NCBI GenBank assembly: GCA_948470475.1 | Contig: OX419338.1 | Location: 822,501-886,500, forward strand | Source of the DNA: Galaxea fascicularis | Taxonomy: Eukaryota; Cnidaria; Anthozoa; Scleractinia; Euphylliidae | Reading direction: 5' to 3' | DNA length: 64,000 nt | Part shown: piece by piece, positions 10,701 to 64,000 of the stretch | Numbering within the stretch: the first letter of the stretch is position 1 | Layout: the number at the start of each line of letters is the position of its first letter | Notes under the pieces: model-generated | What the model was told of the DNA's origin: nothing | What the model saw: only the letters and a program-made list of their open reading frames with translations | Databases searched by the model: none | Made by a program: the position numbers and the translations under genes

Positions 10701-13700
10701 AGTGTAGTCAGAGCATCCACTACTCGCTCATTGGCTGTTGCCTTGCTTGATGTCATGTAAGCATGTGCAATGTGCGCACTATAGTCGACTGCAAACCCAA
10801 CAGCCATGACGAGATTGATCATGGACACAGAGTTCAAGGACACATTCCAGATTACCATCAGGCCAAAAAGCTCGCATATCAGAGAAACAAAATTGACCAC
10901 CACCAATGCAGTTAGTGTGCAGTCAATTAAAAATGGGCTTGTGATGACTAAGACTGTAATGGCTGCTATCACAAGGTTTCTCAAGGTCTCACTGGATGTT
11001 ATAGCATACTGCTCAAAGAAGATGAATGGCCGCGCGGCAGGAAAGGAGTTGAGCTTGGACTTTTCTGCAATGTCCCTTCGGAGTGTTTGCATTGCATTTT
11101 TTTGGAATGTGGAACTACCAGAACTTTTCATAAAGCCAAGGATACGTGAAGCTTCTAACTTTTTCCCATCCTCTGAAAACATCAAGTCTTGAGAGAAATA
11201 CGAAAAAGTGGGAACACGTAGGAATTGTTTCACTTGTGGCAAAAATGCAGAACCAAGGATGCTCGTGTTTCTTGCCTCTGCAAATTGTGCAAAGGAATCA
11301 ATCCACGAGAGTGACCGGTTTCTATAATATTTGTTGTCTACAACAATGTTGGTTAGCTTTCTGAGTTCTTTCTGGGTAGAGTCTGCTCCATAATCAATGT
11401 CCCCTGTCTCAACGATGCTTACTGGAATGGACAATTCAAAGTGTTTTTCTTCAGCAGACAAAAATTGTTTCAGGTAAGAATCATCCTTTGCCAGGATTCT
11501 CCTATCAAATGCTTCATCAACTTGGGTGACACCATAAATTCCAGCACCAAGTAATGCTATTGATAGAATCATAACCACAGCTTTAGTGACAGGATAAGTC
11601 AGAAACATGCCCCATGCCCTCATGACACGATTTGCTGTCTGTGGAAGAGGCTCATCCCAGGCTGGTGCACCTTCTTTTGGTGGAGGGGCTCGGCAGCATG
11701 GTAAGAAGTCTCGGCGGCCTGCCCTGATTCTCTTAATATCATAAGACATGATCGCCACAAAGTATGTAACTATCATCAAAAAGGCCAGAGTGACAGTCAG
11801 TGCAGCATAGATACAGAAATACCTGTAAAAAATAATGAACACAGATTGAGTGAGTTGCATTTCCTTGACAGTGCTCAAGACTAACTTTTCAGTGTACTAG
11901 CCCAGTGGTTATAGTGCACATGTTTGATTCACTAGCCAAAACTAATGTTTCATTAGCCAAACTTGTTTCTTAGCAATTTTATTTCAGTTTCAGAACCATT
12001 TTTCCAACCACAATACTGAAATGAAAGATCTGAACTTATTGTCAGCTTTTTGGAAATAAGTTTCTTTCACATTTGAAAGTGTTATAATGAGTTCATTTCA
12101 TAACACAGCAGCTGAATATAAAAATCTTCATTTTAAGGGGTTTGAACAAGGATGCCAAATAAATACTAGCCTGCGTTTAGCTGACAGTAAACTTGAACAA
12201 TGCAAAAGCAGAAACTTGGTTTCTCTTAGACGGTTTCCACAAACTAAGAGAAAGGAAAGTTTTAGGGGCACTCTTGAAAAATCTGTTACACAACTGTTAT
12301 CAAAACTTTTGCAACTTGCCACCAAAAAACATTCCTTTCTCTCAAAATGCTGATTTATGATCTCTGATGAATGACATAATTTGTTCCATCTTAATTTTCC
12401 TTGGAAGTTGTAAACATTGATATTAAAATAATATGCATTATTCAAATTTGTGAATTACACTGTACGTGCACTCTTTTTTTCTCTCTTCTTATTAATTTTT
12501 TTGAAGTAATTGAAAGAAAAGCATACACGACTTTTTTTTAGTATAAAAATAATCCTAGTCCTATCTAGACTTCTGTGAATTCTAATTTGCATCACGCAGA
12601 TTGTTGCAGACTGAGATCCATTGTTTGTCTTTGTTTTTTATTTATGCTGAATTTCAGAGGACTTTTCAGGTAACTGGACACAATGTGATTTTTGTTAACA
12701 CTCAGACGTGACCACATGGTTGTGTTTTTCTTGGTTTTGGTCAATGTTTGGGTCATTTCGATTAGCCTTTGGTTGAATAAATGTTCATAAATTTGGTCTG
12801 TGGTTTTTCCTGAACACAGTTTGTCATTTGTCGTTTTAGTAAGGAAAAACAGAACTGAAAAAAGTCAATAATAATAATTATTGTGCTTTTGTTTTTTGGT
12901 AATTTAAAGTTATTGCTCCAGGCAGTAAATTACGTGATATTTGCTACAGTTGATGGTTAAAATTCTGCACGCTTTGACTCAATTCTCTTAAACGATTTCC
13001 TCTGGTCTTCCAGTGCTCACTAGCCAAAGTGGCCTACTGGAAGTTTTACTAGTGGATTGTTGACTACCATTAGTCTTGAGCCCTGCTTGAATTATCTCTT
13101 GAGTGTAGGAAACCTGATTTTATATACAGTGTTAAGACGTGATGAAGGCACACATTAACTCTCCTCTCCCCTCAGTGGAAGGTGATGGCATACCAATATT
13201 GGTTTGCCACCACCTTCTATTCCACCACCATGTTTTTAAAACCATGATAACAAATTTTCCATGTTAACTTTCATTCCTCATGGACACCATGACAGGGTCA
13301 TGGATTACCAATACTTCTCAACTTGACAAATTTGGGTAAAGATTTCCAGACAGCCCGGACAGCCCCATACATTAATATTATAAATGTATCACTGTCATGT
13401 ACTAATGGAGTTTGAGTTACTAAATGTATGTCCCCTGTGCTCACTGGTTTGTTACCAAAGATGCAACTGAGATGAAGTCAGATCAAAGGAGCAAGAAGTG
13501 TTTGCTTTTTTTTGGATTTGATGTTATTTTATATTGTTGAATGTGGGTTTGAACAGATGCAGGGTTTGATTCCTGAGTGACTGTGTTTTTTTTTTTCAAC
13601 AAAAGGACTTTTAGTCCAAGAACAACAAAATGTCCCAGGCTGTCTAACAAGAAAGGTAATAGCTCTTGAAATGCTTGTTTGAGTAAGTCAGATTTTGCAT

Positions 13701-15674
13701 TTTATTTTTCTTCTTTGGTTTTCTTTCTTCTCTTTTGTACTTTTGCTTTTTTGTTCTTTAGTCCTAAAAAGATTCTAGAATTGAGAATATATAAGTGAGC
13801 TGTCATGTGTTCATTCATACAGTATATGTCAAGCTCAGAAGACCCTTGCTTTCCTCCTGTTTGATTTCTTTGAATCAGAAGTGTTGATTGTGACAAGCTG
13901 TCTAAAAATTAAAATGACTTGATTTGAGCAACAGTGGCTTCAACTTTTGAATGAAGAGTTCATAATTTGTATTAGCTAGCCTAGTTAGGTTTTTTCTTAG
14001 CTAAATCAACATGCACAAAGAGCACAAACTCAAATCTTCCCAAGGCATTTAGCAGTATAAAAAAATAGTTGGAACATGGGAGTCAATTGAGCTAGGCCTG
14101 AGAATTCTTCTTCCACCTAGCCAGGAAAGTGGAAGGATGCCAATCTCATTCTGATGTTTCATAATGTGAATCAATGTCACTCATGTTTGGTCTCCAAGTA
14201 TTGTGGTATATATTTGCTTCTAAATTCTTGGTGCGCTGTCCAAATCAGTTCAAAGGCAAGTTTTACATTATTTTAACAATGAAATGGATGATGTCAAAAT
14301 ATGCGACAATTATTTTAGTGTGTGAGCCTCACAGTTCCCATTCACCAGTGGGTCACTACCTGCAGGTCTCTTCAATGACTAAAAACAAATTAAATATGAA
14401 AATATTAATGATTGACTGGGTGGACCAATAATAATTATGCTTTTCAATACCTGATTGCTGGAAATGAAGTGGATGTGCTAACTGCAAAGGCAACCAAGTC
14501 TGTCATAGTTGTCATGGTCACTGTGGCTCCTGAACGTGCCATCACTGCTTTGATTACATCACTTTTTGACATGTCCCGTGGCTGGCGATCAAGTTCATCC
14601 ACCAGGATAAACATGTCATCAATGCCAATTCCAAGAACCAAGAAAGGTAGCACACCTACCAAACTGACAAAGGGAACACGACACCACATAGCCAAGCCAA
14701 ACCCAGCTAGTATCCCGAGAGCCACAGCAAAAATTCCTGCATTTGCAAGCAAAGAGTGACCGGTCAGTGGATTCAGAAACTTGCCAAGCATGAAGCAAGC
14801 GAAGCTGATCATGATGGTGAAGGTGATTGAGACGAGGGTGATGTCAGAGCCACTGCTTTCAGCTATGGCATCATCCAGACTTCTTTCACTTGTGTAGTGG
14901 ACCTCAAAGCAAGGTAGATTATCTACAAATTTGGATACTTTGTCAATAAAGTTCTTCTCCCAATTGAGAACTTTCTTGTTACTGTTGTCATCATCAGGAT
15001 CACGGATGAGATACACCATTTGCAGGGCTTTTGCATCAGTGATGCTACTGTTCTGTTGGGTGACAGTGCCAAATATTCGGTTGAAGTTGTACTGGAAAGG
15101 TCGGCCATTGCGCATGAGAATTGTTGTGTTATTGTATGCCCGATTCAGCTCCACTTGAACCTGTGCCAAGGTCTTGTTGTTCAGATTACTTTCATTGTAC
15201 TGCAAAAATTCCAGCGGATTGATCATCATACAGTCATCTACTGACTTAGCTTTGTCTCCTGAAAGTGTGACACAAAAGTCCATATAAGAGTCCAACCCAA
15301 TAACTGCATGATAAGCTTTGAAGGCCTGCTGCAGACATTCAGGAGCAAGAACATTGGGGTGATCAGAAGATGCCACTAGAAGGATGACTTCTTGTCGGTT
15401 ATTTACTCGGAAGTACCTCTGGGCTCTGTTGAGGTCATCTATGGCCTGGCTGTTTTGTGGGATGAACAGTTTTACTGTTCTGTTCTCTGACTGGAACCAG
15501 ACAAACCCCACTGAGCAGACACTTACAAATGCAAGGCATACTGAAATGGTCAGCAATGGACGTTTCGCAATTCTTTCACCAAACCAACCAAAGAAACACT
15601 CCAAAAGACGCACATACCAACTACAGAGTGAGGACCACCAAAAACATGGATTGAACTGACCTGGACAGCGACCA
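4028..15674 (-). CDS. Patched-domain-containing (PTCHD3/RND-like) 12-TM protein, 5' exon not found
   Basis: I predict complement join(15674..14451, 11822..10678, 4737..4028), about 1025 residues plus a missing start. Exon phases agree at both GT-AG introns. The order is TM1 after FGWFGERIAKRPLL, a large loop with Cys residues, sterol-sensing-type TM2-6 with GIGIDD in TM4, a cytosolic loop (YDIKRIRAGRRDFLPCC), TM7, a second large loop, TM8-12 with GFAVDY in TM10, and a hydrophilic C-terminal tail of about 175 residues rich in Glu, Asn and Lys. The conserved Asp residues of TM4 and TM10 are present, so a proton- or ion-driven lipid/sterol transporter role is plausible for the family; the substrate is unknown. 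It is a paralogue of the RND half of the fusion gene at 50825. The true N-terminus must be on an upstream exon ending in phase 2. Confidence 0.9.
4826..4922. mobile_element. Short MITE ending in TTAACCCTTT
   Basis: TTAACCCTTTAACCCCT at the left end is matched in reverse by GGAAAGGGTTAA at the right. The interior GACGAGTAAATCGTCTGGCG is a short hairpin. I recall this pattern as abundant in coral genomes, which I cannot check here. Confidence 0.65.
5147..5595. mobile_element. MITE with ~35-bp imperfect terminal inverted repeats
   Basis: GGGCACCCAACAAGAAACTT at 5147 is matched in reverse at 5560-5595 (GTTGGGTGCCCC and AAATATCCCTCAAAGTTT). The element is about 450 bp with no ORF of its own. Confidence 0.75.
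6511..6539. repeat. 10-bp perfect hairpin
   Basis: TATATTCACC, a 9-base loop, then GGTGAATATA. It follows a TTA-rich simple repeat and is probably a MITE remnant. Confidence 0.8.
6623..7420. mobile_element. MITE with TTTAAAGGGGCA(C/G)TGTCAT ends, interrupted by a SINE
   Basis: TTTAAAGGGGCACTGTCAT at 6623 is matched in reverse by ATGACACTGCCCCTTTAAA at 7402-7420. The tRNA-derived SINE at 6703-7046 lies between them, so it inserted into an existing MITE copy. Confidence 0.8.
6703..7046 (+). mobile_element. tRNA-derived SINE
   Basis: The 5' 75 bp is tRNA-like, with A-box TGGCTCAGTTGG and B-box GGGTTCAATCCCC, ending GGCCGGACCA. A tRNA-unrelated body follows (CACTCAGGGTCTTTAAATAA and so on) and ends in a short TA-rich tail. 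Terminal pairing is imperfect, so I do not call a functional tRNA gene. Confidence 0.85.
8652..10083. mobile_element. Nonautonomous element with ~110-bp terminal inverted repeats
   Basis: The segment 8652-8757 (AAGTTTCAAATTTTAGGTAA, AAATTGACACCA, ACATGAAAGA, CTTGAAACATGGTTCA) recurs in reverse at 9953-10083. A further inverted copy of the subterminal part (GGTTCAAAATCCATACAAATG) lies at 9531. The interior has no transposase. A related partial copy lies at 43130-43200. Confidence 0.75.
10083..10353 (+). mobile_element. tRNA-derived SINE with TTA tail
   Basis: It begins GGTTGGCGCAGTGGTGAGAG (A-box-like), with B-box-like AGGTTTGATTTCC. A body with GCTCCGAGAGG and TACTCCGGTTTTCCCC follows, ending in a (TTA)n tail at 10327-10353. 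I recall this family from stony corals. It sits directly at the edge of the element 8652-10083. Confidence 0.8.
10678..11822 (-). CDS. Exon of Patched-like gene: cytosolic loop, TM7, second loop, TM8-11
   Basis: The exon is 1145 nt, acceptor TTTTACAG|GT, donor GGGAG|GTAAGTC. It completes the split Arg codon after FPAI and continues YFCIYAALTVTLAFLM (TM6), then the YDIKRIRAGRRD loop. The second half has INLVMAVGFAVDYSAHIAHAY in TM10 (20-residue core) and ends in VFMG, where TM12 begins in the next exon. Confidence 0.92.
11823..14450 (-). other. Intron of Patched-like gene
   Basis: This is a 2.6-kb GT-AG intron in phase 2. The only structure I see is a 40-bp near-perfect palindrome at 13178-13217. 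The rest is AT-rich unique-looking sequence. Confidence 0.8.
13178..13217. repeat. 40-bp near-perfect palindrome
   Basis: GAAGGTGATGGCATACCAAT is followed at once by ATTGGTTTGCCACCACCTTC; 18 of 20 positions pair. It lies in an intron of the Patched-like gene. Confidence 0.85.
14451..15674 (-). CDS. Exon of Patched-like gene: TM1, first luminal loop, TM2-6
   Basis: The exon is 1224 nt. On the minus strand the acceptor reads TTTGCAG|T and the donor CAG|GTATTG. It encodes the first membrane segment, the loop with DDCMMINPLEF, and the sterol-sensing-like bundle with LPFLVLGIGIDDMFILVDEL. The exon starts in phase 2, so at least one more 5' exon exists. The open frame continues past the acceptor into the intron, so a start inside that stretch (near 15802) cannot be excluded but is unlikely. 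Confidence 0.9.
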
Positions 15675-15942
15675 CTGCAAATATTAAAAAGCCAATTCAA
15701 TAATAATTTTATTAGGCATAAATAGCCAGAGTTTGAGTTCAAATATTTACTAAAATTCCATTGCACTCCTTTCCACTGGTTATCTTGTGATCTATATGTC
15801 AATGTTAACTGATTTGATCAGATTTGATTTGACCAGAAAATACTGAAAGCAGTACTCTATGGGTAAGGTGAATACAAACCTTCCAAATTTTCAAATTTCC
15901 AGCACCTGTGTTGGTCAGAAGACAATTTCAAGCACACTAGAC

Positions 15943-24780: not shown

Positions 24781-24869
24781 CGCTTAAAAATAACTAAGAC
24801 CAATCATACCTACAAAACAAAGAACAAATATTTACAAAATCCGTAAAAAGATAAGTCTTTGGGGCCCTC

Positions 24870-25285: not shown

Positions 25286-25320
25286 AATAAATAAATAAAT
25301 AAACAAATAAATAAATAAAT
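25286..25320. repeat. (AAAT)n run, probable LINE tail
   Basis: Eight or so AAAT units, one of them AAAC, at the 3' end of the minus-strand LINE. Confidence 0.85.
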
Positions 25321-31490: not shown

Positions 31491-31495
31491 TAAAA

Positions 31496-31793: not shown

Positions 31794-31799
31794 AAATCT

Positions 31800-32040
31800 C
31801 TAAATCTCTGGGTCTCACCATCGATGCTCAACTCTCTTGGTCTAAACACGTCGACGAGATCTAGATATGCAATAAGGTCTGTTCAGCCATTGGTGCATTA
31901 AAACGCATGCATCCTTTTATTTCGATGGATGCTGCAATTCAGATTTATGATGCTTTAATAATACCACATTTTGATCACTGCATCCTGGTCTGGGATTGTG
32001 TGAGTGGCTATTTGAGTGATAAGTTATTTCCGACACGCCT
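31800..32040 (+). pseudogene. Short LINE RT fragment
   Basis: The frames give SIGALKRMHP-like and IQIYDALIIPHFDHCILVWD, a typical C-terminal RT stretch (YxALIxPHxDYC). Only about 240 bp is left. Confidence 0.75.
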
Positions 32041-32159
32041 TCCTACCCGAACAAGATGGCGTCGAAACCGTCATAAGGCCCATTTAAGGAACAGCGATGA
32101 GGGGTAAGTGTAGGTAGGTAACTTTATTTATACACGGTAGTTCCATCAGCTTAATTAAT

Positions 32160-33413: not shown

Positions 33414-33419
33414 TATAAT

Positions 33420-34730
33420 TATAATAATAATTAATAATAATTTATGCACTTCTAGTGCGCATCTTTACATAAGAATGATCAGATGCGTATTCTTAAGATA
33501 AGTACAAAAACTAATAGATGTAAAACTAAAAATATGGCCAGGACTACAAGTTAAAAACATATATAACTAAAAAAATAAAATTCATTAATGGTAAAACTAA
33601 TGGTAAAATGGTAAAACTAATTGTTAAATAATTAGCGCTATCAAGTATAAGCATGTCTAAAAAGGAAGGTCTTAAGATGCGCTTTAAAACTAGTTAAACA
33701 TGTGATTGAGCGAAGCTCACTAGGAAAAGAATTTTATAATGACGGCGCTGCTATGGCGAATGCCCGATCTCCTAGCGTAGCCTTAGATTTCACTGATGGC
33801 ATAGTTAGGAGTAAAGTATTAGAACCCCTAAGATTATAGCGTGATGTCTTGGTACTTAATAAGGACTGTAGATACTGAGGCGCAAGGCCGTGTAACGCCT
33901 TAAACGTGAGAAGAAGTACCTTGAAGTTGATGCGTGCCCTGATAGGCAACCAATGCAAATCGCGCATTATAGGTGTAATATGGCAAAACCTTGGCGCATT
34001 ACATACTAGCCTGGCAGAAGCATTCAGAACTCTCTGAATTTTCGCAAGCTGGTTGCTTGGTAGCCCGTACAATAGGCTATTGCAATAATCGATGCGGGAC
34101 GTTATGAAAGCATAGACTAGCGTCCCCGCAGTTTCTTGAGATAATTACTTGCGTATGCGTCGAATATTACCCAGGTGGTAAAATGCAACAGAACAAAGCT
34201 TACTAATATGACTAGACATAGTGAGCTGTGAATCGAACCATGATCCAAGGTTTCTAACTGCCGAAACAGGACTCACTTTAGCAGAGCCCACCTTAATATT
34301 ATCAATATTAACTTTGGCTAGCTGCTGCCTTGTACCTAGTATCAGAAACTCTGTTTTGTCATCATTTAACATTAGATTGTCTGATATCATCCAGCTCCTG
34401 ACATCACTGATCCAGTCAGTCATAGACTGTAGAGCAGCGTCCGCATCCGCAGATTGGTTTGGGCGGAAGGAAACGTACAGCTGCGTATCATCAGCATAGC
34501 AATGAACTTCTGGCAGATGACGCTCCACGATGTCAAATAGCTTGCGCGTATATATGATGAAGAGCAGCGGGCCTAAGCAAGATCCCTGAGGGACGCCTTG
34601 ACACAGGGGGAACTTCTTGGAAAGACCACCATTCACAGACACTCGCTGGAACCGGTCAGATAAATACGACTTGACATCATGGACTTCCCGTTTTTCCCAG
34701 AAAATCAGGAACACTAGATTTTTTATCATG
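33420..34730 (-). pseudogene. Second LINE type (CR1-like), 5' truncated
   Basis: On the minus strand: CQGVPQGSCLGPLLFIIYT, CYADDTQLYVSF with intact YADD, MLNDDKTEFLILGTRQQL, VRNLGSWFDSQLTM, then after a break near 34140 LQRVLNASARLV-like and DLHWLPIRARINFKVLLLTF. It differs in family from the RT at 32160-33413. The 5' end joins a piece of the dispersed repeat near 34690. Confidence 0.88.
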
Positions 34731-34843
34731 ACAAAAAAAAATGTATCCTTCTAAAGCTATTTGACGTAACAACAACGCATTTTTATTGAAAATGGAAACC
34801 AGTGCAAGAACACCGTTCTTGAGTGCGATTCAGAGGTGGAGAT

Positions 34844-50824: not shown

Positions 50825-53800
50825 ATGGCACCAGGACGACAAGCGATTTCTTACAGCATCCTCACTGCCTACGAGAAAGCATTTGAAAAACTTGGTTTCT
50901 CATTAGCTCGCAAGTCAGGTGTTGTGTTGTTGTCATGGGTATTATTGCTGTTTGCCTGCTGTCTGGGGTTTATTCGCCTTAATGTTAAGCAACCCTCGTC
51001 TAACGATTTCACTGTGGCGGCTAGTCAGTCGAGGCTTGATTTTCACGACGCAGCGCAGTTCTTCTCAATATTCGAGGCACGTCAGGAGCAGATTGTCATG
51101 ACCCCAAAACATAGTAAGGACATCCTAAGTGAAGATTGTTTAAAGGATGTGCGTTTTGTACACCAGACCATCGTGAACATAAGTGGTTACGAGAAATTGT
51201 GTTTCAAACAACCATCTAGAAGAAACAACGTTGAAAGCCCGGCCATAGAGGACTGTGTCATCATGAGTCCTTTGGAATTAGCTGGTACTAACTTTGAACA
51301 TTTGAGTAACTTAACTTCCATTCTGGCTCGTGAATGGACAAATTCTACGAGGGTACTCTCTACTGGTCAATCATTCCATTCGTCTTTTAAGCAGATGCTG
51401 AGTGGTTTCAAAGTAGAAAATGGAACACACTCACATGCAAGAGCTGATGCTATAGGAGTCATTTACTTTATGAGAAAAGCAAGCAGTGAAGAAGATCAGG
51501 AAATTCTTGACTTTGAAAGATCTTTCGAGAGTTCAGCCTTATCAATACAACACCATTTGAAATGTGCATCGCTTGCCTTTAAAACCGGGAAAGCGTCTGA
51601 TGATATTTTAAAAAGCATCCTGCAACCACAAATGAGACCACTTTATTTGTCAGCACTGATCATCGTATTTCTTGCGTTTATTTCCGTCTACCTTTCTTCC
51701 CCTAATGTCAGCCTCTTTGCAACATTCCTTCTGATTCTCTTCTCAGTCCTTTTGCCATTAATATGTACTGTAAGTATTGTTTCCATGGTAAACATATCTT
51801 TCTTTCCAACTATCCTGTTCATTCCCTTCCTGCTAATTGGAAAGGTGACTTCAGATGTAGTCATTTATTTACAAAAGTGGGAACAACACAACGAGGTACC
51901 ATCTCTTGAACATCGAGTCAGTACCTGTGTTGTAAGGGCAGGAATTCCCCTAACACTGACGGCAATTTGTGGAGGGGCAGTTGCAGGGATGGCGATCAGA
52001 TCATCATTTACAGTCATTTCTCAGTTTTTTTTGGGAGCCCTTGTTACATATGTTATTGTTTCAGTTGTATCTTTCACAACGGCTGAGACCTTGTTATTGC
52101 ATTTTGAGAGGCAGGCCATAAGAACAAGGAACACGGTTTGGACAAAACTCTTTATCACACGGTCGTCATTCTACAACCTTGGAGATATGACAGGATTCTG
52201 TGGAAGGATAACGAGGATGCTACTGTCAGTTGTTGGTAAAGTGTTATCATTCTTCCTGGTGGCCTGCATTATCACCGCGTCTGTGTTGTTCATTTTAGAA
52301 CCTGGTGAGAGAATGAGTACCACTGTAAGCCTTTATCACCAAAACGACAATTTTAACCGGTTCATTGAAGCACAGAAAAAGTTCTTTGGAAGCGAAACTG
52401 ATGTCAGTATTGTTTTCTCGCATGGGGCTGACTACTCAAAACCGGCCGTTCAAAATCGAATGATCAATATTTGTAAATCACTGCAAAAGGCAGCACGTAA
52501 TCAAAGAGTATCAGATTGTTGGATGGTAGAGCTGTTAAAGTGGGCAAAACACCAAAACATACGCTGCTCCAATTTGGAATTCTACCAATGTTTGAACACT
52601 TTTCTCAACCAAATTAAAAGTTCCCATTTTCGGCAAGACTTACGGTTCAAAGATTATCATCCTCCATATCAAATTCTGGCTTCTCGTATTCACGTCAAGA
52701 TGCCACGACAACACCGCCTCAAAGAAGATAGAAGATCACTTGAGATACTAAGAGATGCGTTGCCCAACCAGTCTCTGCTAAAAGCTGTACTAGTTTCTGA
52801 AACCTTTTTTGAGCTAGATGACCTCTTCGTGTTGAAAAATGAAACATTTTTTGTTCTACTGATTACTACTGTTGTAGTCTTTGTACTGACTTTGTTTTCA
52901 TGCACAAGTGTCTGGTTCAGTACTTGCATAACAGGGTCATTCATCTTACTTTTGTTGGAGGCCGCAGCAATTCTAAAGGCATCGGGGGTTCTCGTAAATC
53001 ATATCACTTTCATAACCCTGCTTTTCACAATTATCATGGCCCTCAATTTTAGTCTTCAAGTCGTCTACTTAGATATATTTTCAAGAACGCCAAGCACAGA
53101 ACAACGCATGGTAGAAGGTCTTTACTCTGCTGGGTGGTCTGTGTTTACTTCAGCATTACTGGAGGCATCTGGATCCGTATCATTGGGTTTTATTTTTCCT
53201 AGGCTACAAGATATTTTCTTTCGACTCATCCCTACGGTTTTTGCCCTGGGGTGTATCCACGCTCTAGTGATTCTCCCTCCAATAATCACATTGTTTGTCA
53301 AAAGTCTGAAGAGTTTGAGGAATGAATTGAATGCACCCGACACTGAAACGGAGAGTATACTGCTGGAGGTACAACATGGCGAAAGACAACAGGGCACACC
53401 TAAGCACCCTGGTATATCCATTATTGGCATTAGTTGTAGGTTCCCTGGAGCAAGCAGTAAGGACATGTTTTGGGATTTACTTGAGCAAGGGAAGAGTTCA
53501 TTCAGCGCTTTCCCTCAAAACAGAGCAGACCAGAATAAGATGTTCTTTCAGCTCTATCATCCTAAGCGCTTCGTTAGTGGTCGTCATTGCGCCATCACCG
53601 GCTCTTACATGGAAGACATTAAACATTTTGACAACAAGTTCTTTGGTATTTCAAATCAAGAGGCTCGTGAAATGGACCCTCAACAACGAATTCTTTTAGA
53701 AGTTGTGTATGAGGCCATTGAAGATGCCGGAATGCGGCTCGAAGACCTGCAGGAGTGCAAAACTGGGGTTTTCGTTGGTGTCATGAATTTGGAGTTTGGT

Positions 53801-56443
53801 GCACTGTTGACAGAATCTTCGAATTACAGGAACATCGACCAGTTTTGCTCTACTGGGGTGACAGCGTCTATTCTCGCCAACAGATTATCCTTCTGCTTTA
53901 ACCTAACAGGCCCAAGCATTTCTGTTGATACCGCGTGCTCTTCATCCTTGACTGCGCTGAAAATTGCATGCGACAGTCTACACAACGACGATTGTGACAT
54001 AGCCATTGTTTGTGCACCTAACATTATTCTTGACCATGCCATGCAGATGGTAACCAGTATGGCTGGTCTTCTTGCACCGGATGGACGCTGCAAGAGCTTT
54101 GATGCTTCTGGGGATGGCTATGGAAGAGGAGAGGGCTTTGCAGCCATTTTACTAAAACTCTCGCACGCAGCTTTGAGTGACAAAGATGACGTATATTGCG
54201 AGATAATTGCCTGTGGTATGAACAACGATGGGCAAAATGCCATACCCATAACAGCACCGTGTGCAAAAACACAAGCCAAACTCTCTAGAAGCGTTCTGGA
54301 GCAATCAGGAGTAACTGCAGGGGATGTAGATTACTTTGAAGCGCATGGCACTGGTACGGCCATTGGAGACGTTGTGGAAGTTACGTCAATTGCAGACACC
54401 TACACAAAAGCAGCTACAAACTCCACCCGAAAGCTAAGGATTGGCTCTGTGAAGTCAAACCTCAATCACACTGAATCTACTTCGGGCCTCGCTGGTATTA
54501 TTAAGGTTGCTCTCATGATTAAAAAGAAGAGATTTGTCCCAACGGTTAACGTGAATGTGATAAACCCCAAACTGAAGTTGGAGGAGAGGGGAATGGTTTT
54601 GCAGCAAACGTCCGAGCCTTGGATCCAGGAAAATGGAAAACTCCGAACTGGAGCAGTAAATTCGTTTGGTTATGGTGGGTCTAATGTACATGTTATACTT
54701 CGGGAAGTTGCACCATCAAAACAAAGTTTGGAGCAAGAAAGAGCACAGCATCTTAATAGTGTTCTGACTATTTCCGCTCGCTCTCAAGATGCTCTTAAGC
54801 GGATGGCTAGAAATTATTCCAAATGGCTGAAAGATAACATACGGGATATGGATGCAACTCGTGTGGAAGACTTATGCTATTCTTTGAACCAACGTCGTAG
54901 TCAATTCCCACATCGTCTCGCCGTTTCTTTCAGTTCCATTTCTAAGGCATCCAGCTCCCTGGGAGACTACGCAGATGACTCCATGGGTTGGGAAAAGGAA
55001 GCTTGCTATGGAGAGGCGACGTCTTCTGACCCAAAGATAGTGTTCATGTTTGGTGGACAGGGCTCACAGTGGTATGCCATGGGAAGACAACTCATCACAT
55101 ATGAGCCTGTTTTTAAAGAAGCCATTTTGACCGTCAGCAATATAGTGCAAGATTTAGGAGAATCCTGGTCAGTTATAGATGAGCTTATGGCCTCAGAGGA
55201 AAAGTCAAAGATATCAGAAAACTCCATCGCTCAACCAGCCACGTTTGCTGTACAGTATGCAACTGCACAATTACTGATGTCTTGGAAAATACACCCGTCT
55301 GCTGTTATTGGTCATAGTCTGGGTGAGTTTGCAGCTGCCTGTGTTGCTGGGATCATAACCCTCAAGGAAGCGGTTCAGCTGGTGTTGATTCGCTCTACTC
55401 TACAGAATCATTGTCCGAGTAATGGTGGAATGGCCGCCCTGGGCATGTCAGTAGAACAGACCAAGACGTTGCTGTTGGATCTTAAATTGACTCCAACACT
55501 TGATATTGCTGCAGTTAATGATGCAAATAGTGTAACAGTTTCTGGTAATTCCCAGTCAGTTGAAGCCCTAGGTCAACATTTAGCCATTCACTCAAGAAAT
55601 ACTTTCTGGCGTGTTCTTGGAACAAAACGCGCATTTCACAGCTCACACATGGAGATAATTAAGAAGCCTTTTCAAGAAGCGATGAAGAAAGTCAGTTTGA
55701 AACCTCAGCTGTCCAAGATTCCAATGTACTCTACCGTCAAAGGTGAAGTCGTTCCTGGTCAGCAGTTCAACTGCAGTTATTGGTGGCAGAACATTCGCTG
55801 CCCGGTCCAGTTCCAGACAGCGCTGAAAAATCTGTTGCAAGACGGATACAAACAAATCATTGAGATCAGCAGTCAACCGATCTTAGGTAATTATGTCAAG
55901 CAGATTGCCACGCAAGAAAAACTTCAAGACCAAGCAATGCCAGTTATTTTGCCAACTCTTCCGCGAAAGAAAGTGCCTGTCAGTGAACAGCACAAGTCTT
56001 TTCTCTTGACCACAATATGCAAGTTGTACACTCTCGGATTTCCCATAGACTGGGTCTGTGTGCAGAGAAGTCCATCCGCCAAGTTTGTCCGCTCACTTAA
56101 CTACCCTTGGTTGAAAAAAAGTTTTTGGTTTAGGGAGCATCTGCCTGAAAAAATCATCTCTCCTCTCAATGCTGAGAAGAGCGCGAAGATGAAACATCCA
56201 TTTTTGGGAAAAGTAAAGATGACTGACCTATATTCAGGTTTGCACTGCTGGGAGACTGAGATTGACCTCTATCGCTTTCCATATCTGAAGGATCATGCTC
56301 TTATACAAGGAGGAAGTGTGTTGCCAGGAGCTGTCTATCTGGAAATGGCCTTTGCCATGGCGAAGGATCAATTTACAAAGGTTTCTGGGTTGGAACTAAC
56401 TGATGTGAAGCTCTTGAGTCTTCTGACTCTACCGGACACACAG
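50825..56443 (+). CDS. Exon 1 of RND-PKS fusion: whole RND module, KS, AT, N-terminal DH
   Basis: This exon has 1873 codons without a stop and ends at CAG|GTATGT. The first ~830 residues show about 12 hydrophobic segments (near 32-51, 273-291, 294-317, 321-341, 373-391, 399-421, 472-490, 673-693, 696-715, 725-747, 769-790, 800-825), with large extracellular/luminal loops after TM1 and TM7, as in Patched-domain proteins. KS begins at IIGISCRFPG (866) and has DTACSSS with Cys1038, EAHGTGT with His1174 and KSNLNH with His1215, at canonical spacing. AT has FGGQGSQ (1409-1415), GHSLGEF with Ser1498 and RAFHSSH with His1605; the AFH form of that motif is usual for malonyl-selective ATs. DH starts near 1791 and has YLKDHALIQGG with His1824. 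The exon is unusually long and has no intron in the transporter part. Confidence 0.93.
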
Positions 56444-57708
56444 GTATGTAAAGACCAAAGATTGAAATTACAGTGACATTTCAGTTGTTATTTATACCTA
56501 TGCGGTACCAGACAGTACTGATGCTGTCATGACCATTTGAGATCTGGAAAGTGTTTTTAAAGCCACACGGAAAACAGTCTCCTTGTTATTGCTGTTGTCA
56601 GTATTATATTCAATATTATAATATTATATTAGAATAAATAACTTAATTTTTGCTGAGTTCCTTTTCAAAACCTTTTTGCCTTTAGTCCAGATCATTTTGG
56701 CGGATGTTTATTCAATTGTATTTTCCTGATTAATCTTATGCTTTGGTTGACAAGGTTCGATCATTGCGGCTTCGCCTGTTGAGGACTGACAGTGTTAACA
56801 AAGCCCATTTTTACGTTACAAGTGTACTGGATGACCTGTCAGAGGTGAAACTCGCCATTGGAATTGTCTTGGTAGATCTGTCAACACAAGGAGTAAATCA
56901 GTTTAAGAAACAAGGTATCTGTTTTAAATTTTAAAGGAAAGTATTGCTCTTTCGTAAAGTGCTTGTTACCATCTGTAATTTATGTGACTGGAATGTTAGT
57001 TGGAACAGAAATCTTCGTTGGCTCTTAACCTGTGAGCTAAAATTGTCTGCAAAAGATTCGTTCTTTCCATATTTAATTTTTAATGATTTTGAACTGTATT
57101 ATCTAAGGTCACTTAGATTTACTGGGATCCTGCTACTGCCATAAATAAAGGATTTGATGTACGGTGGAAATTTTCTTATCTATATGAAGGATAACTCGTA
57201 AATGCCGAGACAGCGCTAAAATCAACGAGAAGATGTTTGCTTAGAAATCGTGAATACTGCTGTAGAAGGTCAAAACACTATATCCGGATCCCAGCCTAAA
57301 GAACTAAAAGAAAAAGAGCAAATTTGACTCATAACAAGATGGAATTCTAGCAGTCACGATTTCTACTAATTTTGACTCCTCTTGACTTGCAAGTTGGTTT
57401 CACAAGTTAGCTGGAATGTTAAAAATATTATTTCGTTCCTCTCATGATTGCAACATGGAATTCTTTCCATTTTTCTGCACTAAATTAAATGCTTTCAACA
57501 ACAACAACAACAACAACAACAATCTTTTATCTGTACAATGATATAAACTCCGTTTCTTGTCTTGTGGTACCTCATAATACATCATGGTTAAAGAACGGTT
57601 GCAGAATGCTGATCAGCTTCGTCTATTTGATATTTTTACAGAAATGACGTGACTCAGAACAAATTTCGCAGAATTCAAATGTATCTTACAGAATAAGACC
57701 GGTCAGTG

Positions 57709-57763
<55 letters not shown>

Positions 57764-57780
57764 GTCAGTCAGTCAGTCAG

Positions 57781-57812
<32 letters not shown>

Positions 57813-60800
57813 CCAATCCAATGACAATATTTGTCACTTGATTGATTGATTGGCTGATTTTTACCTATTTCGTTGCACCTTTAGTTTCCAATGAGGTTGG
57901 CCCAGCAGTTAATGAACTACTGACAAACATGACGAAGGTATCACTAGAAAGGTTCAAGGAAACAACAGAGAAGTGTGGGTTCAACTATGGACCTATGTTC
58001 TCCATAATCAGGGAGATCTGGACATCTGACCATGAGGGACTTTGCTTAGTGGACATCAGTGAGTCACCAACCATTGTTGAAGAAGCTGGGTATTACGTGA
58101 TCCATCCCTCCGTATTGGATGCATGCCTTCAATCCTGCTGCATCCTTCTGGAAAAGTCTTTAACGGACGACAAGTCCTATGTGCCGGTTGGTTTCAAAAG
58201 CATCACCTTGAATGGTGAGCCATCAACCAACCGTTTGTACTGCCACGTCGTTGCAGATGTGACTGAGTTTGGAAGATATGACATCACCCTCATGAGTCCA
58301 TCCGGCAAAGTTTTGCTCACAATGAATGACTTCCGTGTTGTAGAATTAACAAGTTCACCTCGTCAACTTACTTTCAATGAACTTGCCTATGAAGTCCAAT
58401 GGATCGAAGAAGAGTTGCAGGAGCAAAATACAAACACCCCTAATTTCACTTGCATAGTGCTCAAAGAATCGTCCTATTTCTCCGACGACTTAGTCATGAA
58501 ACTTGAAGCCGCTGATTGCAACATCATCTTCATTGATCCACCAAGTGCAGGATGTCTCGGCACCCAAACAGAAGAAGCAATACGGTCATTGTTTGCAGGA
58601 ATACAACTACCCAATTCATCCAACCTGAGGATTGTAAACTTGTGGCCAACTGAAACATCGCTATTCGCAGACAACGTTGCGGGAATTGAACAAGCACAGC
58701 ACCTTGCATTCCGTAGTTCGGTCGTCTTGCTAAAGTTGCTCATAGAGAAAGAGTTGAATGATGCTTGTTTGTTCCTCATCACCGAACGTACGCAGCTACT
58801 GAAAGCATGCAGGAAGTCTCCTGGGAATAGATCTATTCCATGGGGTTCGACAGTCTGGGGACTTCGACGAACAGCAGACCTTGAGGGTACTGCTTGCATG
58901 ATTACAGCTGTTGACCTGTCCAATAAAGAAGATCAATGTGAAGTCGAGTTCTTGGTTGCCGAGGTTCTTAGTGATAGCCATGGAGAAGAGGTGGCCTTTC
59001 GAGATGGTAAACGCTTCGTTAATCGCCTTATCAGATCAGGAAGCAGACAAGAGAAAGTAACAGTAATTACCGACAGAAATGACATGAAAAAGAAGAGACC
59101 CCTGTACGTGTCAACTCTACCTTCATCGCAAATGCTGTGTCTGCGCGAGCTAAGCTTTTCAAAGCCATTACACTCTGAAATCACAATTGACGTGTTCTCG
59201 TTCTGGACACCCTTAACCTCGTTATCTTCCTTAACTCAACCAAACGCATGTGTTTTCATCACTGGCAGAGTGACTGATCCACCAGAAACGCTCGAGCACA
59301 TTTTAAAGATGGGGGATGAAGTGTGTGGTTTTATTTCATCTGGGCGTGTTGGAAGTTCTGTTACCATGGAAGTCAGTAACGCTTTTGCAAAACCAGTTGG
59401 TCTCACATGGAAACAGGCCACACACATACCCGCTTGCCTCTCCCTAGCTTGTTATGCGCTTCAAAGAGCTTCATCAGGTGAAGAAAATCAGACGTATCTG
59501 ATCCATGAAGCCAACCGTGGCCCTGGTCCTGCGGCAGTTCTGCTTGCAAAGACATTGGGCCATCAAGTATTTTGCACAATTTCCAACACCTGCAAAATGT
59601 CTACAAAACAAATGCTACTAGAAATGGGAGCAGAATGGGTGATACAGCATACTTCGTCTGGTTTAAAACATTACCAGAACGAGCAGTTTGATGCTGTCAT
59701 ATTTTTCTCTCCTCCTTCTCCAAATGCTTTCCAGAAGAGTCGCCGAAGCCTCAGAAAAGGAGGGAGAGTTATCATATTGAGTTCTGAGTTTAATGGTGAC
59801 ATAGTAGTTCCTGCAAACTGGGATGTCAAATATGAGAGAGAGAACATATCAGAATTACTTCGGCGTCCCCACCTATATGAGAAGCTAAGTTTACAAGGTT
59901 TGGAATTGTTAGAGAGCAAAGGGGTGCTTAAACAGCTTCTAGGAATGCAAATGGAGTGTGAGGAATTGGCAAAGTCAATCAAAGAGACAAATGAGTCTGT
60001 TGAAAACGTGTCATCTCCAAATCATGAGTTGGAAAAATACTCAGACATTTCATGTCTTGTACAGTCACTTGCAACAGTTACAGATGAAAGCCACCTTGAG
60101 GGTATCCCACTGCTGCCTGTTGGTTTAGACGAATGTGGCCTGAAGGAAAACAGAACCTATTTGGTAGTCGGTGGTTTCGGAGGACTTGGGTTTGAAGTGG
60201 TTTGCTGGATGGCAGAGAATGGGGCAAAGACCATCGGAATTCTAAGCCGCTCAAAACCGTCAGATGACAAAAGTCAAGAGATACGGCGGATTGAGAGGAG
60301 GACTGGCGCTAAACTGTATACATTTCAGGTAGTCCACTTATGTTCCTAACGCAACCATGCTGTTACACCTTTTTTTTTCCTCTGTTGCCTGGTGGATAAG
60401 AGTTCAGTGAGACCAATAACATTCCAGTCGTTTAAGTCATTGCAGTTCAGGGGTGAAACATTAACATTTCCATGTTTGAAGACCTCAAAACTTTCTTAGC
60501 TACATTTCAATGCCGTTACTGAACTTTTGTCGGTTCACAGGATCCCAGGATTTAAATCTGATCGACTAAACCTCAAGACTCTTAAGACTCATACTTAAAA
60601 CATTTTATTCTTTTAAGGTTGACATATCCAGCCAGGACCAAATGTTGAACTTCAGAGATCAGCTTCAATCTCTTCCCAGTGTGGCTGGAATTGTACACTC
60701 TGCCATGGTTCTTAGAGACGAATTGCTCAAAGATCTGACATTTGAAAGCTTTAATGTGGTCATGGGGCCAAAGATCAAAGGTGCGATCGACTGTTATAAT

Positions 60801-63800
60801 GATTTCTGAATCTGCGTTCACAAACCAGTCACAATGTCATTCATGACATATTTCATCCGCCCTCATTGATTACCTTCGTGGAAGTAGAATAACAGAATTT
60901 GGCAAAACAACTTATTCGTTAAAGAAAACGTCCAGAGGCCTGATTCACGAAACCCGCCTAAGTTAAGATACATCCTAATTATTGTTTTCAAAAGGCTATT
61001 GATATCAAAACAATAGGCTATTGTGAGAAAACAATACTTAGGATACACCTTATCTTAGTAGAGCTTCGTGAATCTGGCGCCAACACTGGAATACATTTTG
61101 TAACTTTGATTGTCTTGGTGTTTAAATCAAGAACGATCGTAACTTTCGTAGCACTGTAGCTTCATCACGGAGTTATCATTCATACTTCAGCAAACCTATG
61201 CGAACATTTTCCTGTTTCTTCTTAGGTTCTTTTATGCTACACCAACTGAGTCTGGAAATGGATCTGGATTTTTTTGTGATGTTTTCCTCTGTGGCATCGA
61301 TCTTGGGTAACATGGGACAATCGTCATACTCCGCGTGCAACGCTTTCCAGGATTCTCTTGCAGAATACCGCAGAAACGTGCTGGGTCTGCCTGCTCTCGC
61401 AATAAACTGGGGACCCATTAGTGGAGCTGGTGTGATGGAGAGGAAACAAGTAGTCGCTAAATTTCTGGAGAAGGCAGGATTTGGGTTCGTGACTGCCAAG
61501 GATGGTAAGTTGGGCCATCTGTGGGAGTAAAGGAAAATCAAGAATGTGAAATTTCCAATATGAGAACATTTGTTGGGATTATTTAATTGTCAGCTGCGTA
61601 CACGATCATTTACTTCTGGTAACTTTCACGTTAAAAGCTCAAAGCTGAAAATACACAAAAACTCCTTGTCTCGTTTTGGCGTAAGACTTTGAAATGAGAT
61701 GCCTTGTCATATTAGAGATCTTCCTAAAAGGTAATTCATCATAGTACTTCACGGATTGCTTTCCGATATTTTCAACAGAGAAAATGACTGTATTCAGACG
61801 CCATTCATAATTAAAAAAGTTGGTTGAACAGTTAAATAATTTCATATTGTATAAATTGTATGCTTTCCACTCTCCGTAAATTTCCTTTTCGTTTTTCTTT
61901 AATTCTTTCTTTCGCTGGGCCGCCTAGATTGGCAATTGCTATTTTGCGGGCAGTTCTGTTGTAAGAATGATGTATATGCAATAAATCATATATGATGTAA
62001 GATCATTTTTACTGAAATAAAGTTGGAGTTGAAGTTGAAGTTGAACTCAAAGTTTGACAATTGCTGAATTGGGACGGCCGGTGAGCGGGACTCCTCTTCT
62101 GCTAAGTGACAAACTCTCTCAAGGGTTGGCTTCTTTCGAATAATTGCTACCCTGGATTAAAAAACTTCTACCTTACCTATTCATAAATCTGACGATGGGG
62201 GCGCTCTTCATGGTGCTGTGATAAACATTTGATGCTCACTTGTTTTATGTAAGGCATTTGCAAAGAAATAGAATTTCAGTTCTGATGCATCGTTTTCAGG
62301 GTTGGCAGAACATATATTACAAAATTTGGATTTCAGTTGCTATTAAAATCATTTTTAATTGCTGCTACAGGAGTCAAACACATGGCCAAAGTACTGACTG
62401 AAGAGCCAAGTCGTTGTCAGGTTTCTCTATTTAGCGTTGACTGGCCTCAATTTCTAAAAAGAAGCCCGGAATTGAAGAAATCTGCCAGACTTTCCGTCAT
62501 CAGAGCTACAGTGGACATCACTGATCAAGAGACCAGCTCAACAGAGTCTCTGGCACAAAGAATCATTCTGGAGAAGGACCACGAAAAGAGATCGGAGCTT
62601 ATCAGCGAATATGTTGCCTTGACAGCAGCAGAATGGACAGGAATTGCATCTCCCTCTGAGACAGACCTTAAGAAGAGCTTGTACAGCTATGGAGTGGACT
62701 CCACCTTGTCTCTTACTTTAAAAATGCATCTCGAAGCTAATCTGGGTATTTCATTTGAGGTGTGTTGCTCACTATGAAAACATACATACAATATCCAGGA
62801 AGGGACGGGGGACCCGGGGTGGCGGGCAGCCACCTTTGAGGCGGTCGCTCCCCATGGTTTCCCCAATTAACAAATCTCACGGTCATTTTAGTACCATGGC
62901 AAACATATGCGAAATCAGCTTAAGACGATTTCAACGCCTGACACTAATTAAATTGAGAGTATTGCGGAGTCGAACTGAATTTCTTTCTGTAGCGAGCACT
63001 GTCGTTACCTTGCCACCGATAGGTGTTTCGTTATAAAAGTAAATTAGCGACAGCATCGAGTAAATTGAAAAGCCCATTCTTTATCATGAATGTCGGGAAA
63101 AATCGTGAAGTCTCGTTCAAACTGAGGCAGCACTTTTTTTCTCAAATACAAAGAGCTTTCGTCGGGTAAAGGAGTAACTCACATTGAACCAGTCCATATA
63201 TTGACAAAAATTATGAAAAAGGTATTTTCGGACTTGTTTTAGTGAAGCCTCGAACTTCAGTTCGATCACAATTCAGTGCGTATGCTTTCATAATGTCGTT
63301 GTCAAAGTACTCTATAAACGCTGGGGATAAACTTGCATTAAAACGTTGCTTCTATACATTCATTTGGTTTTCATACGTCATTTGGAATAACCGTTTCTCC
63401 TTGTAGACATCGAGCAATTCAAATCTTGTGCAAGTGGCCTAACGATTCTGATAAACTACTGAACAACAGACGCATTTGTTTGCCTAAGCACGTTAACAAC
63501 AATCATGACTTTTAGTAGACCGACAGTATATCAGTATTCCCCAGATCAGTTTAGTATTGGCAGTGCAGTGAGATAGAGTGGGTTATGGACAGTTGTAGAT
63601 ATTTGTATCCTGCTGTGACCAACCTTTAGACTTCAGTATTTGTCTCACAATGTGCTGTTTACTTCCATTGACTGGGCAATCTATATAGCCAAAGTCCAAA
63701 AGAAAGGAGCATTTAAACGTTTGATACTTTCCACTTTCAGGTTCACTATTTCATGCAGCCTGACACCACCCTTGCTAAACTAGCAAAAGATATTGAGACT

Positions 63801-64000
63801 AAGCTAACAAGCCAGCATGCAGTTTCTCAGTCGTCCACAGGACAGACTGATGGTGATAGTGACAGTCAAGAATCTGAATCTGATCAGACACAAGTCTCTT
63901 CATCAGATGGTACGCAAGGAAGCAAGATTCAAGTAGTACCGTTGTACAGTCCCAAAGGCGCAGCTATAAAGTTTTTCTGCGTGCATCCATCACATCGTTA
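50825..64000 (+). CDS. Patched/RND-type 12-TM protein fused to type I polyketide synthase (KS-AT-DH-ER-KR-ACP...), 3' end outside window
   Basis: I predict join(50825..56443, 56755..56914, 57885..60328, 60618..60780, 61226..61504, 62371..62759, 63741..>64000), at least 3104 residues. Every intron is GT-AG and the phases (0,1,0,1,1,0) agree. The order is RND/Patched-like module (1 to ~830), a linker of about 30 residues, KS (~864-1290), AT (~1400-1710), DH (~1791-2060), structural linker (~2060-2340), ER-like (~2350-2640), KR (~2680-2870), ACP (~2955-3045), then a possible thioesterase start. The start ATG has A at -3 and G at +4. KS, AT, DH, KR and ACP keep their key residues, so the PKS probably makes a reduced polyketide or fatty-acid-like product from malonyl units. 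The RND C-terminus is cytosolic in this family, so the synthase would sit on the cytosolic face of a membrane. No methyltransferase domain is seen. The fusion is read directly from one open frame; its product and transport role are inference. Confidence 0.9.
56444..56754 (+). other. Intron 1 of RND-PKS gene
   Basis: This is a 311-bp GT-AG intron in phase 0, rich in A and T. Stops in the exon 1 frame follow directly after the donor. I see no other feature in it. Confidence 0.75.
56755..56914 (+). CDS. Exon 2 of RND-PKS fusion (middle of DH)
   Basis: The exon is 160 nt. The acceptor is GACAAG| at 56754 and the donor AAG|GTATCT at 56914/56915. It enters in phase 0 and leaves in phase 1. It encodes a beta-rich stretch (AHFYVTSVLDD) that fits the strands between the two hotdog halves of a PKS dehydratase. 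No enzyme motif lies inside it; it is placed by phase and by its position in the DH fold. Confidence 0.75.
57496..57522. repeat. (AAC)n microsatellite
   Basis: About nine uninterrupted AAC units lie in intron 2 of the RND-PKS gene. Confidence 0.9.
57710..57815. repeat. (CAAT)n / (CAGT)n microsatellite
   Basis: A tetranucleotide array of about 25 CAAT units has a central block of CAGT units. Just downstream, GATTGATTGATTGG at about 57840-57853 is complementary to the array, so a local hairpin is possible beside the exon 3 acceptor. Confidence 0.95.
57885..60328 (+). CDS. Exon 3 of RND-PKS fusion (C-terminal DH, linker, ER-like, start of KR)
   Basis: This 2444-nt exon follows acceptor TTTAG| at 57884 and ends at CAG|GTAGTC. 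The split Val1927 codon is completed across the intron. It begins with the second DH hotdog: FNYGPMF and HPSVLDACLQ with catalytic-type Asp2005. A region of low recognisability follows (the structural non-catalytic KR/linker of FAS-like synthases), then a medium-chain-reductase-like ER domain (GDEVCGF, YLIHEANRGPGPAAVLLAK near 2464-2482). KR begins at GGFGGLG (2689-2695), the NADPH-binding loop. The ER loop differs from the usual GGVG form and may be inactive. Confidence 0.88.
60329..60617 (+). other. Intron 3 of RND-PKS gene
   Basis: This is a 289-bp GT-AG intron in phase 0. I see nothing else in it. Confidence 0.75.
60618..60780 (+). CDS. Exon 4 of RND-PKS fusion (KR core)
   Basis: The exon is 163 nt, from TTTTAAG|GTT to AAAG|GTGCG, entering in phase 0 and leaving in phase 1. 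It encodes VDISSQDQ, the conserved D-V/I-S step after the second Rossmann strand of ketoreductases, then AGIVHSAMVLRDELL and VVMGPKIK with the likely catalytic Lys2793. Its borders are fixed by the match to the KR family on both sides and by the phases. Confidence 0.87.
60937..61081. mobile_element. Hairpin MITE inside intron 4 of RND-PKS gene
   Basis: The two halves are near-complementary over about 65 bp. The left half has GATTCACGAA, TAAGATACATCCTAA and TATTGTTTTC; the right half has GAAAACAATACTTAGGATA and TTCGTGAATC in reverse. It lies wholly inside the 445-bp intron 60781-61225. The family is not identified. Confidence 0.7.
61226..61504 (+). CDS. Exon 5 of RND-PKS fusion (KR active site)
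   Basis: The exon is 279 nt, from CTTAG| at 61225 to GATG|GTAAGT at 61504. It encodes FFVMFSSVASILGNMGQ and SSYSACNAF. Ser2817 and Tyr2830 are 13 residues apart, as in known KRs, and Asn2834 gives the YxxxN pattern. LAINWGPISGAGVM follows, the usual C-terminal KR signature. The ketoreductase therefore looks intact. Confidence 0.9.
61505..62370 (+). other. Intron 5 of RND-PKS gene
   Basis: This is an 866-bp GT-AG intron in phase 1. It includes a short GTTGAA-type simple repeat near 62022-62045. No coding signal is recognised. Confidence 0.7.
62371..62759 (+). CDS. Exon 6 of RND-PKS fusion (KR-ACP linker and most of ACP)
   Basis: The exon is 389 nt, from GCTACAG|GA to TTTGAG|GTGTGT, entering in phase 1 and leaving in phase 0. 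After a linker (LFSVDWPQF), a helical acyl carrier domain starts. SYGVDSTLSLTLK carries the GxDS motif, with Ser2999 as the predicted phosphopantetheine attachment site. Confidence 0.87.
62760..63740 (+). other. Intron 6 of RND-PKS gene
   Basis: This is a 981-bp GT-AG intron in phase 0 that splits the ACP domain. I see no mobile element or other gene in it. Confidence 0.7.
63741..64000 (+). CDS. Exon 7 of RND-PKS fusion (end of ACP, Ser/Gln/Asp-rich linker, possible thioesterase start); runs off the window
   Basis: The acceptor CTTTCAG| lies at 63740. The exon opens in phase 0 with VHYFMQPDTTLAKLAKDIE, which is helix 3 and 4 of the ACP (Q/P-T-I/L-xx-LA-xx-I). A low-complexity linker of about 45 residues rich in Ser, Gln, Asp and Glu follows. 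The last visible residues, IKFFCVHPSHR, resemble the first strand of thioesterase/alpha-beta hydrolase domains (LFCxHP). The frame is open at the window edge, so the terminal domain is not determined. Confidence 0.78.

Follow-up and report, generated by a model that had tools for sequence, protein, structure and literature searches.

A Patched-like RND module fused in one reading frame to a polyketide synthase in the stony coral Galaxea fascicularis

Organization of the locus

The window analyzed here is a 64,000-nucleotide stretch of the genome of the stony coral Galaxea fascicularis (C4:822501-886500; contig C4 is OX419338.1 and spans 36.8 Mb of a 416.6-Mb genome in 170 contigs), and its right end is occupied by a rightward-transcribed gene coding for a Patched-like RND (resistance-nodulation-division) module joined in one frame to a type I polyketide synthase (PKS). 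An open reading frame (ORF) runs without interruption on the plus strand from 50825 to 56476 (1,883 codons), and an in-frame TAA stop at 50798 lies upstream of the ATG of the gene. This ORF, with exon 1 closing at 56443 just before its GT donor, confirms the uninterrupted 1873-codon exon that a first-pass annotation had described as leading from the RND module into ketosynthase (KS), acyltransferase (AT), and dehydratase (DH) domains. The same annotation placed enoyl reductase (ER)-like, ketoreductase (KR), and acyl carrier protein (ACP) domains in six further exons; the place and phase of these exons hold, as do the KR and ACP, but the ER-like region is a degenerate remnant and the gene is longer than proposed. 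The complete model has 12 exons and codes for 3,527 amino acids (aa), ending at window coordinate 70052, ~6 kb beyond the window, after a thioesterase (TE) and a tail. All 11 introns are GT-AG with phases in order, and the domain order of the full protein is RND-KS-AT-DH-(ER remnant)-KR-ACP-TE followed by the conserved tail. Coordinates are given in Table 1.

The 11 introns and the 36.8-Mb contig rule out contamination from a symbiont or a bacterium, and prokaryote genomes, scanned for two peptide patterns, yielded 593 stretches without a relative among them. Intron 2 contains a (CAAT)n array of 27 copies (window 57710-57818) directly 5' of exon 3.

Table 1. Features of the fusion gene and stand-alone Patched-like genes (window coordinates unless a contig is named)
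Feature	Coordinates	Strand	Details
Exon 1, 1,873 codons, RND-linker-KS-AT-first half of DH in one frame	50825..56443	+	GT donor at 56444
RND module (aa 1-835), folded like NPC1/Patched, with two large loops and a sterol-sensing region in transmembrane helices (TM) 2-6	50825..53329	+
TM4 codons K340 to D344	51842..51856	+	Lys in 93/93 rows, Asp in 89/93
TM10 codon N741 (NPC1 Glu; stand-alone coral relatives Asp)	53045..53047	+
Linker between RND and KS, aa 836-862	53330..53410	+
Ketosynthase, aa 863-1300	53411..54724	+	Pfam ketoacyl-synt 1e-73
Acyltransferase, AFHS motif	55040..55969	+	Pfam AT 9e-55
Dehydratase, first half	56195..56443	+	Pfam PKS_DH_N 2e-13
Exon 2 (DH)	56755..56914	+
Exon 3 (second DH half, ER remnant, KR start)	57885..60328	+	Pfam
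ER remnant	59252..59809	+	Pfam ADH_zinc_N 28.8 bits, below cut-off 31.8
Exon 4 (KR)	60618..60780	+
Exon 5 (KR; Ser2817, Tyr2830)	61226..61504	+
Exon 6 (KR end, ACP; phosphopantetheine Ser2999 at 62700-62702)	62371..62759	+
Exon 7 (thioesterase start)	63741..64043, window part to 64000	+
Exons 8-12, beyond the window	65700-66017, 66312-66542, 68187-68508, 68913-69047, 69832-70052	+
Stand-alone Patched-like gene, multi-exon, outside the fusion	10661..15817	-	Pfam Patched 1.5e-23, NPC1_MLD 1.6e-8
Further stand-alone Patched-like genes	C4:1163793-1166544; C7:19064086-19068854

Conservation of the fusion

When only the RND half was used as query against candidates as long as a PKS fusion (5,995 scored), 91 proteins were returned, and KS and AT domains are listed for all 91, so that the joined halves, which the first-pass annotation had proposed to look for in related genomes, are found in other corals. 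Named relatives come from Oculina patagonica (four, on one 38.5-Mb contig), Desmophyllum pertusum (two), and Stylophora pistillata; one further relative is annotated with a PpsD-like name, and an Oculina relative appears in databases as 'mycocerosic acid synthase-like'. Six relatives each lie on a 1,995,220-base contig, which suggests tandem arrays. Pairwise identities of the RND and KS-AT parts are strongly correlated over the 92 rows formed by the window gene and its 91 relatives (r = 0.90, with 0 of 2,000 permutations as high), indicating that the RND and PKS halves have evolved together. Judged from these alignments, the fusion is a conserved protein family of stony corals.

A chance or assembly join is excluded at the level of sequence because both halves align over at least 500 residues in all 92 rows. 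That an assembly join or read-through of neighbouring genes has created the fusion has a negligible probability: the join is shared by 91 proteins of other assemblies and occurs twice in the Galaxea genome, and both halves lie in one exon with no intron between them. Two Desmophyllum models that each lack one half (OS493_013734 and OS493_013735) carry adjacent numbers and look like one split gene. Three apparent unfused PKSs, P0092 and P0093 of Desmophyllum and P0094 of Porites harrisoni, were rejected as such; they begin within the KS, the AT, or the linker, appear to be truncated gene models, and do not speak for an unfused state. Among shorter proteins (7,995 scored) there were six matches, five with a KS and the sixth a 575-aa piece on a 7.7-kb contig, and no free-standing member of the fused RND clade was found by the fusion-length and shorter searches with their word-based prefilter.

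Domains of the synthase

The KS Cys-His-His, the AT Ser-His, and the active residues of DH, KR, ACP, and TE that define a type I PKS are all present. In an alignment of 93 rows, few of which extend beyond exon 1 to the DH end, KR, ACP, and TE, KS Cys1038, His1174, and His1215 and AT Ser1498 and His1605 are each kept in all 93, and DH His1824 in 92 of the 92 rows with a letter, in keeping with the canonical catalytic residues noted at first pass. Among the rows that reach further, the DH Asp is found in 6/7, KR Ser2817 and Tyr2830 in 7/7, ACP Ser2999 in 5/5, and the TE Ser and His in 5/5 and 6/6, respectively. Pfam searches of the predicted protein, the check suggested at first pass, find the sterol-sensing, ketoacyl-synt, AT, and PKS_DH_N families, with PS-DH and the beginning of KR in exon 3 and a thioesterase in exon 8 (9e-16); the ACP scores 20.9 bits in Stylophora (cut-off 20.8) and 16.3 in Oculina P0022.

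The ER stretch departs from this pattern. The N/G-F-x-D (NFxD) block, present in 16/16 compared PKSs, is absent from all 10 coral fused-family rows, and RGPG replaces GGVG in nine of those 10. By these motifs, the fused enzyme is without a working enoyl reductase and is not a fully reducing PKS; with the ER lost, the product is therefore predicted to keep double bonds.

The tail after the TE (~130 residues, window ~68870-70052) is 63 to 72% identical in five relatives. Two tails match no Pfam family at E≤5 and have no meaningful PDB match, and a PLC-type PH domain is unsupported (hhalign probability 0.4%, using a reference sequence that matched 1mai).

The RND module and its ion-coupling site

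An AlphaFold2 model of aa 1-855 has the NPC1/Patched fold across residues 5-830, and Pfam places a Sterol-sensing domain at aa 302-424 (22.5 bits, cut-off 22.3), both bearing out the proposal of a full Patched-like module. The same domain scores 35.0 bits in Stylophora and is called in part of the 91 relatives, not all. Large loops between TM1-2 and TM7-8 and a sterol-sensing domain in TM2-6 place the module in the NPC1/Patched branch of RND proteins, and conserved cysteines and loop residues are present. By sequence, the RND half matches NPC1 in the PDB (E 5e-7) and Patched less strongly; the NPC1 model of NCBIfam matches it at 3e-14, far below the full-length cut-off of that model.

The acidic TM4 and TM10 pair that marks proton-driven RND proteins is mostly missing from the fused clade, with the register of both helices taken from an NPC1 alignment and coral paralogues. 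TM4 reads GIGIDD in stand-alone coral relatives but GKxTSD in the fused clade, and TM10 reads VDYS in the former and carries an Asn in most members of the latter; the comparison with these paralogues indicates that the change is derived in the fused clade. The invariant TM4 Lys (window 51842-51844) is four residues ahead of the retained Asp and is absent from the stand-alone paralogues; at the TM10 site, 83 of the 92 rows with a letter have Asn, the others Ser (five), His (two), Ile (one), and Asp (one).

Second fused copy and other loci

A second RND-PKS fusion is located at C4:1000515-1002788 on the opposite strand (whole copy C4:990051-1002788), with open exons corresponding to exons 2-7. 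The ratios of nonsynonymous to synonymous substitution rates (dN/dS) between the two copies (KS 0.15, AT 0.28, DH 0.14, RND 0.42) indicate that both are under purifying selection. Of the RND changes that could be assigned to one copy, 33 belong to the window copy and 58 to the second, with 133 sites undecided, and strongly conserved RND columns are kept at 93/99 in the window copy, loops included, and at 73/99 in the second, which may be decaying.

Three stand-alone Patched-like loci elsewhere in the genome share 19 to 25% identity with the fused RND module. The one within the window matches it by BLASTP with 20% identity over ~400 aa (E 9e-25) and is therefore a relative, not a shown donor. 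An ORF at 4031-4765 on the minus strand reads like another transmembrane exon, with no Pfam family matched, and ORF fragments at ~22500-34750 resemble, as judged by eye, the reverse transcriptase of a non-LTR (long terminal repeat) retroelement. Beyond the window, an unfused coral PKS begins at C9:14203153 as a single open frame of 2,335 codons organized as KS-AT-DH-methyltransferase-ER-KR; its ER domains are recognized at the Pfam level and its ER motifs are intact.

Phylogeny and origin

In a KS tree of 48 rows, the fused coral sequences fall together with two fish PKSs (bootstrap/SH-like approximate likelihood ratio test 97/91), and in a tree of 37 rows they do so with the fish PKSs and the unfused C9 coral PKS (96/91); the sequences were collected by way of a KR-TE search, with two fish rows only and long branches, and this grouping of the coral synthase appears good but not final. 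Identity as a fatty acid synthase (FAS) was rejected, with FAS rows, including a scallop FAS-like protein, on a separate 100/100 branch of the KS trees. No close bacterial PKS donor is seen among the 120 listed of 173 matches found (7,989 scored), and the best non-coral match among those 120 has 246 bits versus 2,364 bits for the first coral row. The fusion likely arose when a Patched-like copy without introns was added to the 5' end of an animal PKS, because introns are missing from the fused RND module while they interrupt the stand-alone gene within the window.

Relation to known systems

Animal type I PKSs share the KS-AT-DH-KR-ACP(-TE) order of the fusion, as seen in medaka OlPKS, sea urchin PKS-2, and the Acropora enzymes, but no membrane module is described for them in the accessible text of Hojo et al. 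2015. There, the medaka PKS product is lipophilic, secreted, and needed for otolith nucleation, and the enzyme lies close to the apical membrane, that text mentioning no RND half for it; the urchin skeleton likewise needs a PKS. PKSs were found in Acropora and none in Nematostella or Hydra, such that cnidarian PKS tracks calcification. Three Acropora digitifera PKSs are tabulated as 'other-KS-AT-DH-KR-(ACP)-TE', with 'other' unexplained in the accessible text and also used for a turtle PKS (Hojo et al. 2015). These Acropora enzymes probably belong to the fused family, with 'other' corresponding to the RND half.

A doubtful extension is that the coral product serves calcification, with the fused RND module delivering it to the calcifying space as a counterpart of the medaka and urchin enzymes. 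The lipophilic secreted product, the apical enzyme, and the cnidarian distribution of Hojo et al. 2015 favor it, as does the grouping of the fused rows with fish PKSs in the 48- and 37-row trees; a quick KS tree of 114 rows, however, supports the joining of corals and fish at only 89 and has a stray long fungal row within that group. The fusion is also present in Desmophyllum, a coral without algal symbionts, and photosymbiosis is therefore not its reason. Opposing a calcification role, a paper on the non-calcifying zoantharian Palythoa mentions two PKS genes (its data not shown), the main text of a Stylophora cell atlas never mentions polyketide, PKS, or Patched, and defence or pigment roles fit equally well.

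Coupling of an RND protein to a PKS has a precedent in Mycobacterium tuberculosis, in which MmpL7 binds the PKS PpsE (Jain and Cox 2005). Both systems, so far as the accessible descriptions go, combine an RND protein of lipid-transporter type with a type I PKS and lack the canonical proton relay, but MmpL7 and PpsE are two separate bacterial proteins, whereas the coral RND is Patched/NPC1-type with one TM4 Asp and is bound to its PKS covalently, through the reading frame. An RND-ACP complex, MmpL5-AcpM, has been solved, according to PDB entry titles. Closer in architecture are two 'ACR-B coupled' PKS-like proteins of Chromera velia, Cvel_8275.t1 (4,523) and Cvel_22311.t1 (4,384), with an N-terminal AcrB-like/sterol-sensing part on one PKS-like module; a Chromera RND-coupled protein is predicted to sit in the endoplasmic reticulum. 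Chromera is a protist that was isolated from stony corals, and its proteins are compared here by description only.

The NPC1/Patched/PTCHD-type RND proteins have the same fold and loop plan as the fused module, but they are separate proteins with intact TM4/TM10 acids. In HMG-CoA reductase, a sterol-sensing membrane half is fused to a cytosolic lipid-making enzyme, although this half has eight helices without a full RND fold and the enzyme is a different one.

The literature searched (supplementary and subscription papers excepted) gave no description of an animal RND-PKS fusion, and the accessible part of a paper on animal FAS-like PKSs (AFPKs) mentions neither coral, transmembrane, nor Patched. 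The remark at first pass that no described animal enzyme of this order was known thus holds for the papers searched but not for databases, where entries exist under mycobacterial names, nor probably for the Acropora 'other' PKSs as known from the accessible text. The architecture is rare and, in the papers searched, undescribed for animals, while precedents exist both for its parts and for coupling as a principle; its novelty is reduced by the Acropora enzymes and by the Chromera proteins as described.

Proposed function

Anchoring, export or flipping of the product, and sterol control had all been offered at first pass as possible functions. Our preferred reading, to which we assign a probability of about 0.5, is that a synthase tethered to the membrane would build an incompletely reduced lipid from malonyl units and likely hand it to the RND module of the same protein, to be flipped or exported. 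The RND core would have both its ends in the cytosol, as in NPC1 and Patched, and because of this the PKS is expected on the cytosolic face of the membrane, the side supplied with malonyl-CoA and NADPH. The AT motif points to malonyl extender units, the chain would retain double bonds with the ER not working, and the TE would release the product as an acid beside the bilayer. The freed lipid would then be passed directly to the RND module, which may be the point of the fusion (compare MmpL7-PpsE).

Several findings weigh against this reading. The AlphaFold2 model is of only moderate confidence (mean predicted local distance difference test score [pLDDT] 66), and the RND half diverges faster than the synthase (42 to 56% versus 68 to 79% identity to the window gene for KS-AT). 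The TM10 acid is absent in 91 of the 92 rows with a letter, P0049 alone having Asp there, and the fused clade has also lost the first of the relay's TM4 Asp residues; because of these two losses, canonical proton-driven pumping by the module appears unlikely. In the second copy, the RND loops are shortened by ~60 and 34 residues while the KS-AT exon is intact, and a synthase can therefore persist without a whole RND module; exons 8-12 (TE and tail) of that copy were not found in the next 14 kb. MmpL7, however, is described in the accessible literature as lacking the canonical relay and still exporting its lipid, and relay loss therefore does not rule out transport.

The altered ion site also fits a reading in which the RND half senses sterols or lipids and, in place of transport, serves as a regulatory anchor, holding the enzyme in the endoplasmic reticulum and tying the level or activity of that enzyme to membrane sterol. 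Loss of the relay acids with gain of an invariant Lys is as expected if pumping was abandoned, Sterol-sensing is the Pfam domain that scores (35 bits in Stylophora), and the location predicted for the Chromera analogue in its published description agrees. Yet the whole 12-helix fold and both luminal domains are kept, where HMG-CoA reductase and SCAP have one bundle, and the conserved cysteines and loop residues and the export by MmpL7 despite its missing relay argue in the same direction; we regard a sensing anchor as unlikely. Quite unlikely, by comparison, is a mere anchoring role, with the RND half fixing the synthase in the membrane of one cell surface and the product leaving by another route. 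Such an anchor would accommodate both the second copy, with its constrained KS-AT exon and damaged RND loops, and the medaka enzyme, which acts apically with no RND half in the accessible report, but it has no need for the conserved RND columns kept in the window copy (93/99, versus 73/99 in the second) or for a Lys that is invariant in 93/93 rows.

Returning to synthesis coupled with export, a broader version that we consider rather unlikely as a whole is a self-exporting animal PKS that captured a Patched-like RND module, whose ion site was then rewired, and that delivers an aragonite-seeding lipid to the calcifying space, much as PKS products seed fish otoliths and urchin spicules, the Chromera version being a transferred copy or a convergent twin.

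Implications

The fusion unites a transporter fold and a complete reducing PKS in one animal protein that is kept across corals with catalytic residues intact, and the coupling of synthesis to export, a contact between two proteins in mycobacteria, becomes testable in a single chain. It offers a likely identity for the unexplained N terminus of the Acropora PKSs, and thereby a molecule with which to test whether coral calcification is started by a polyketide. It would also represent a host-encoded route to polyketide lipids on reefs, which would otherwise be credited to microbes.

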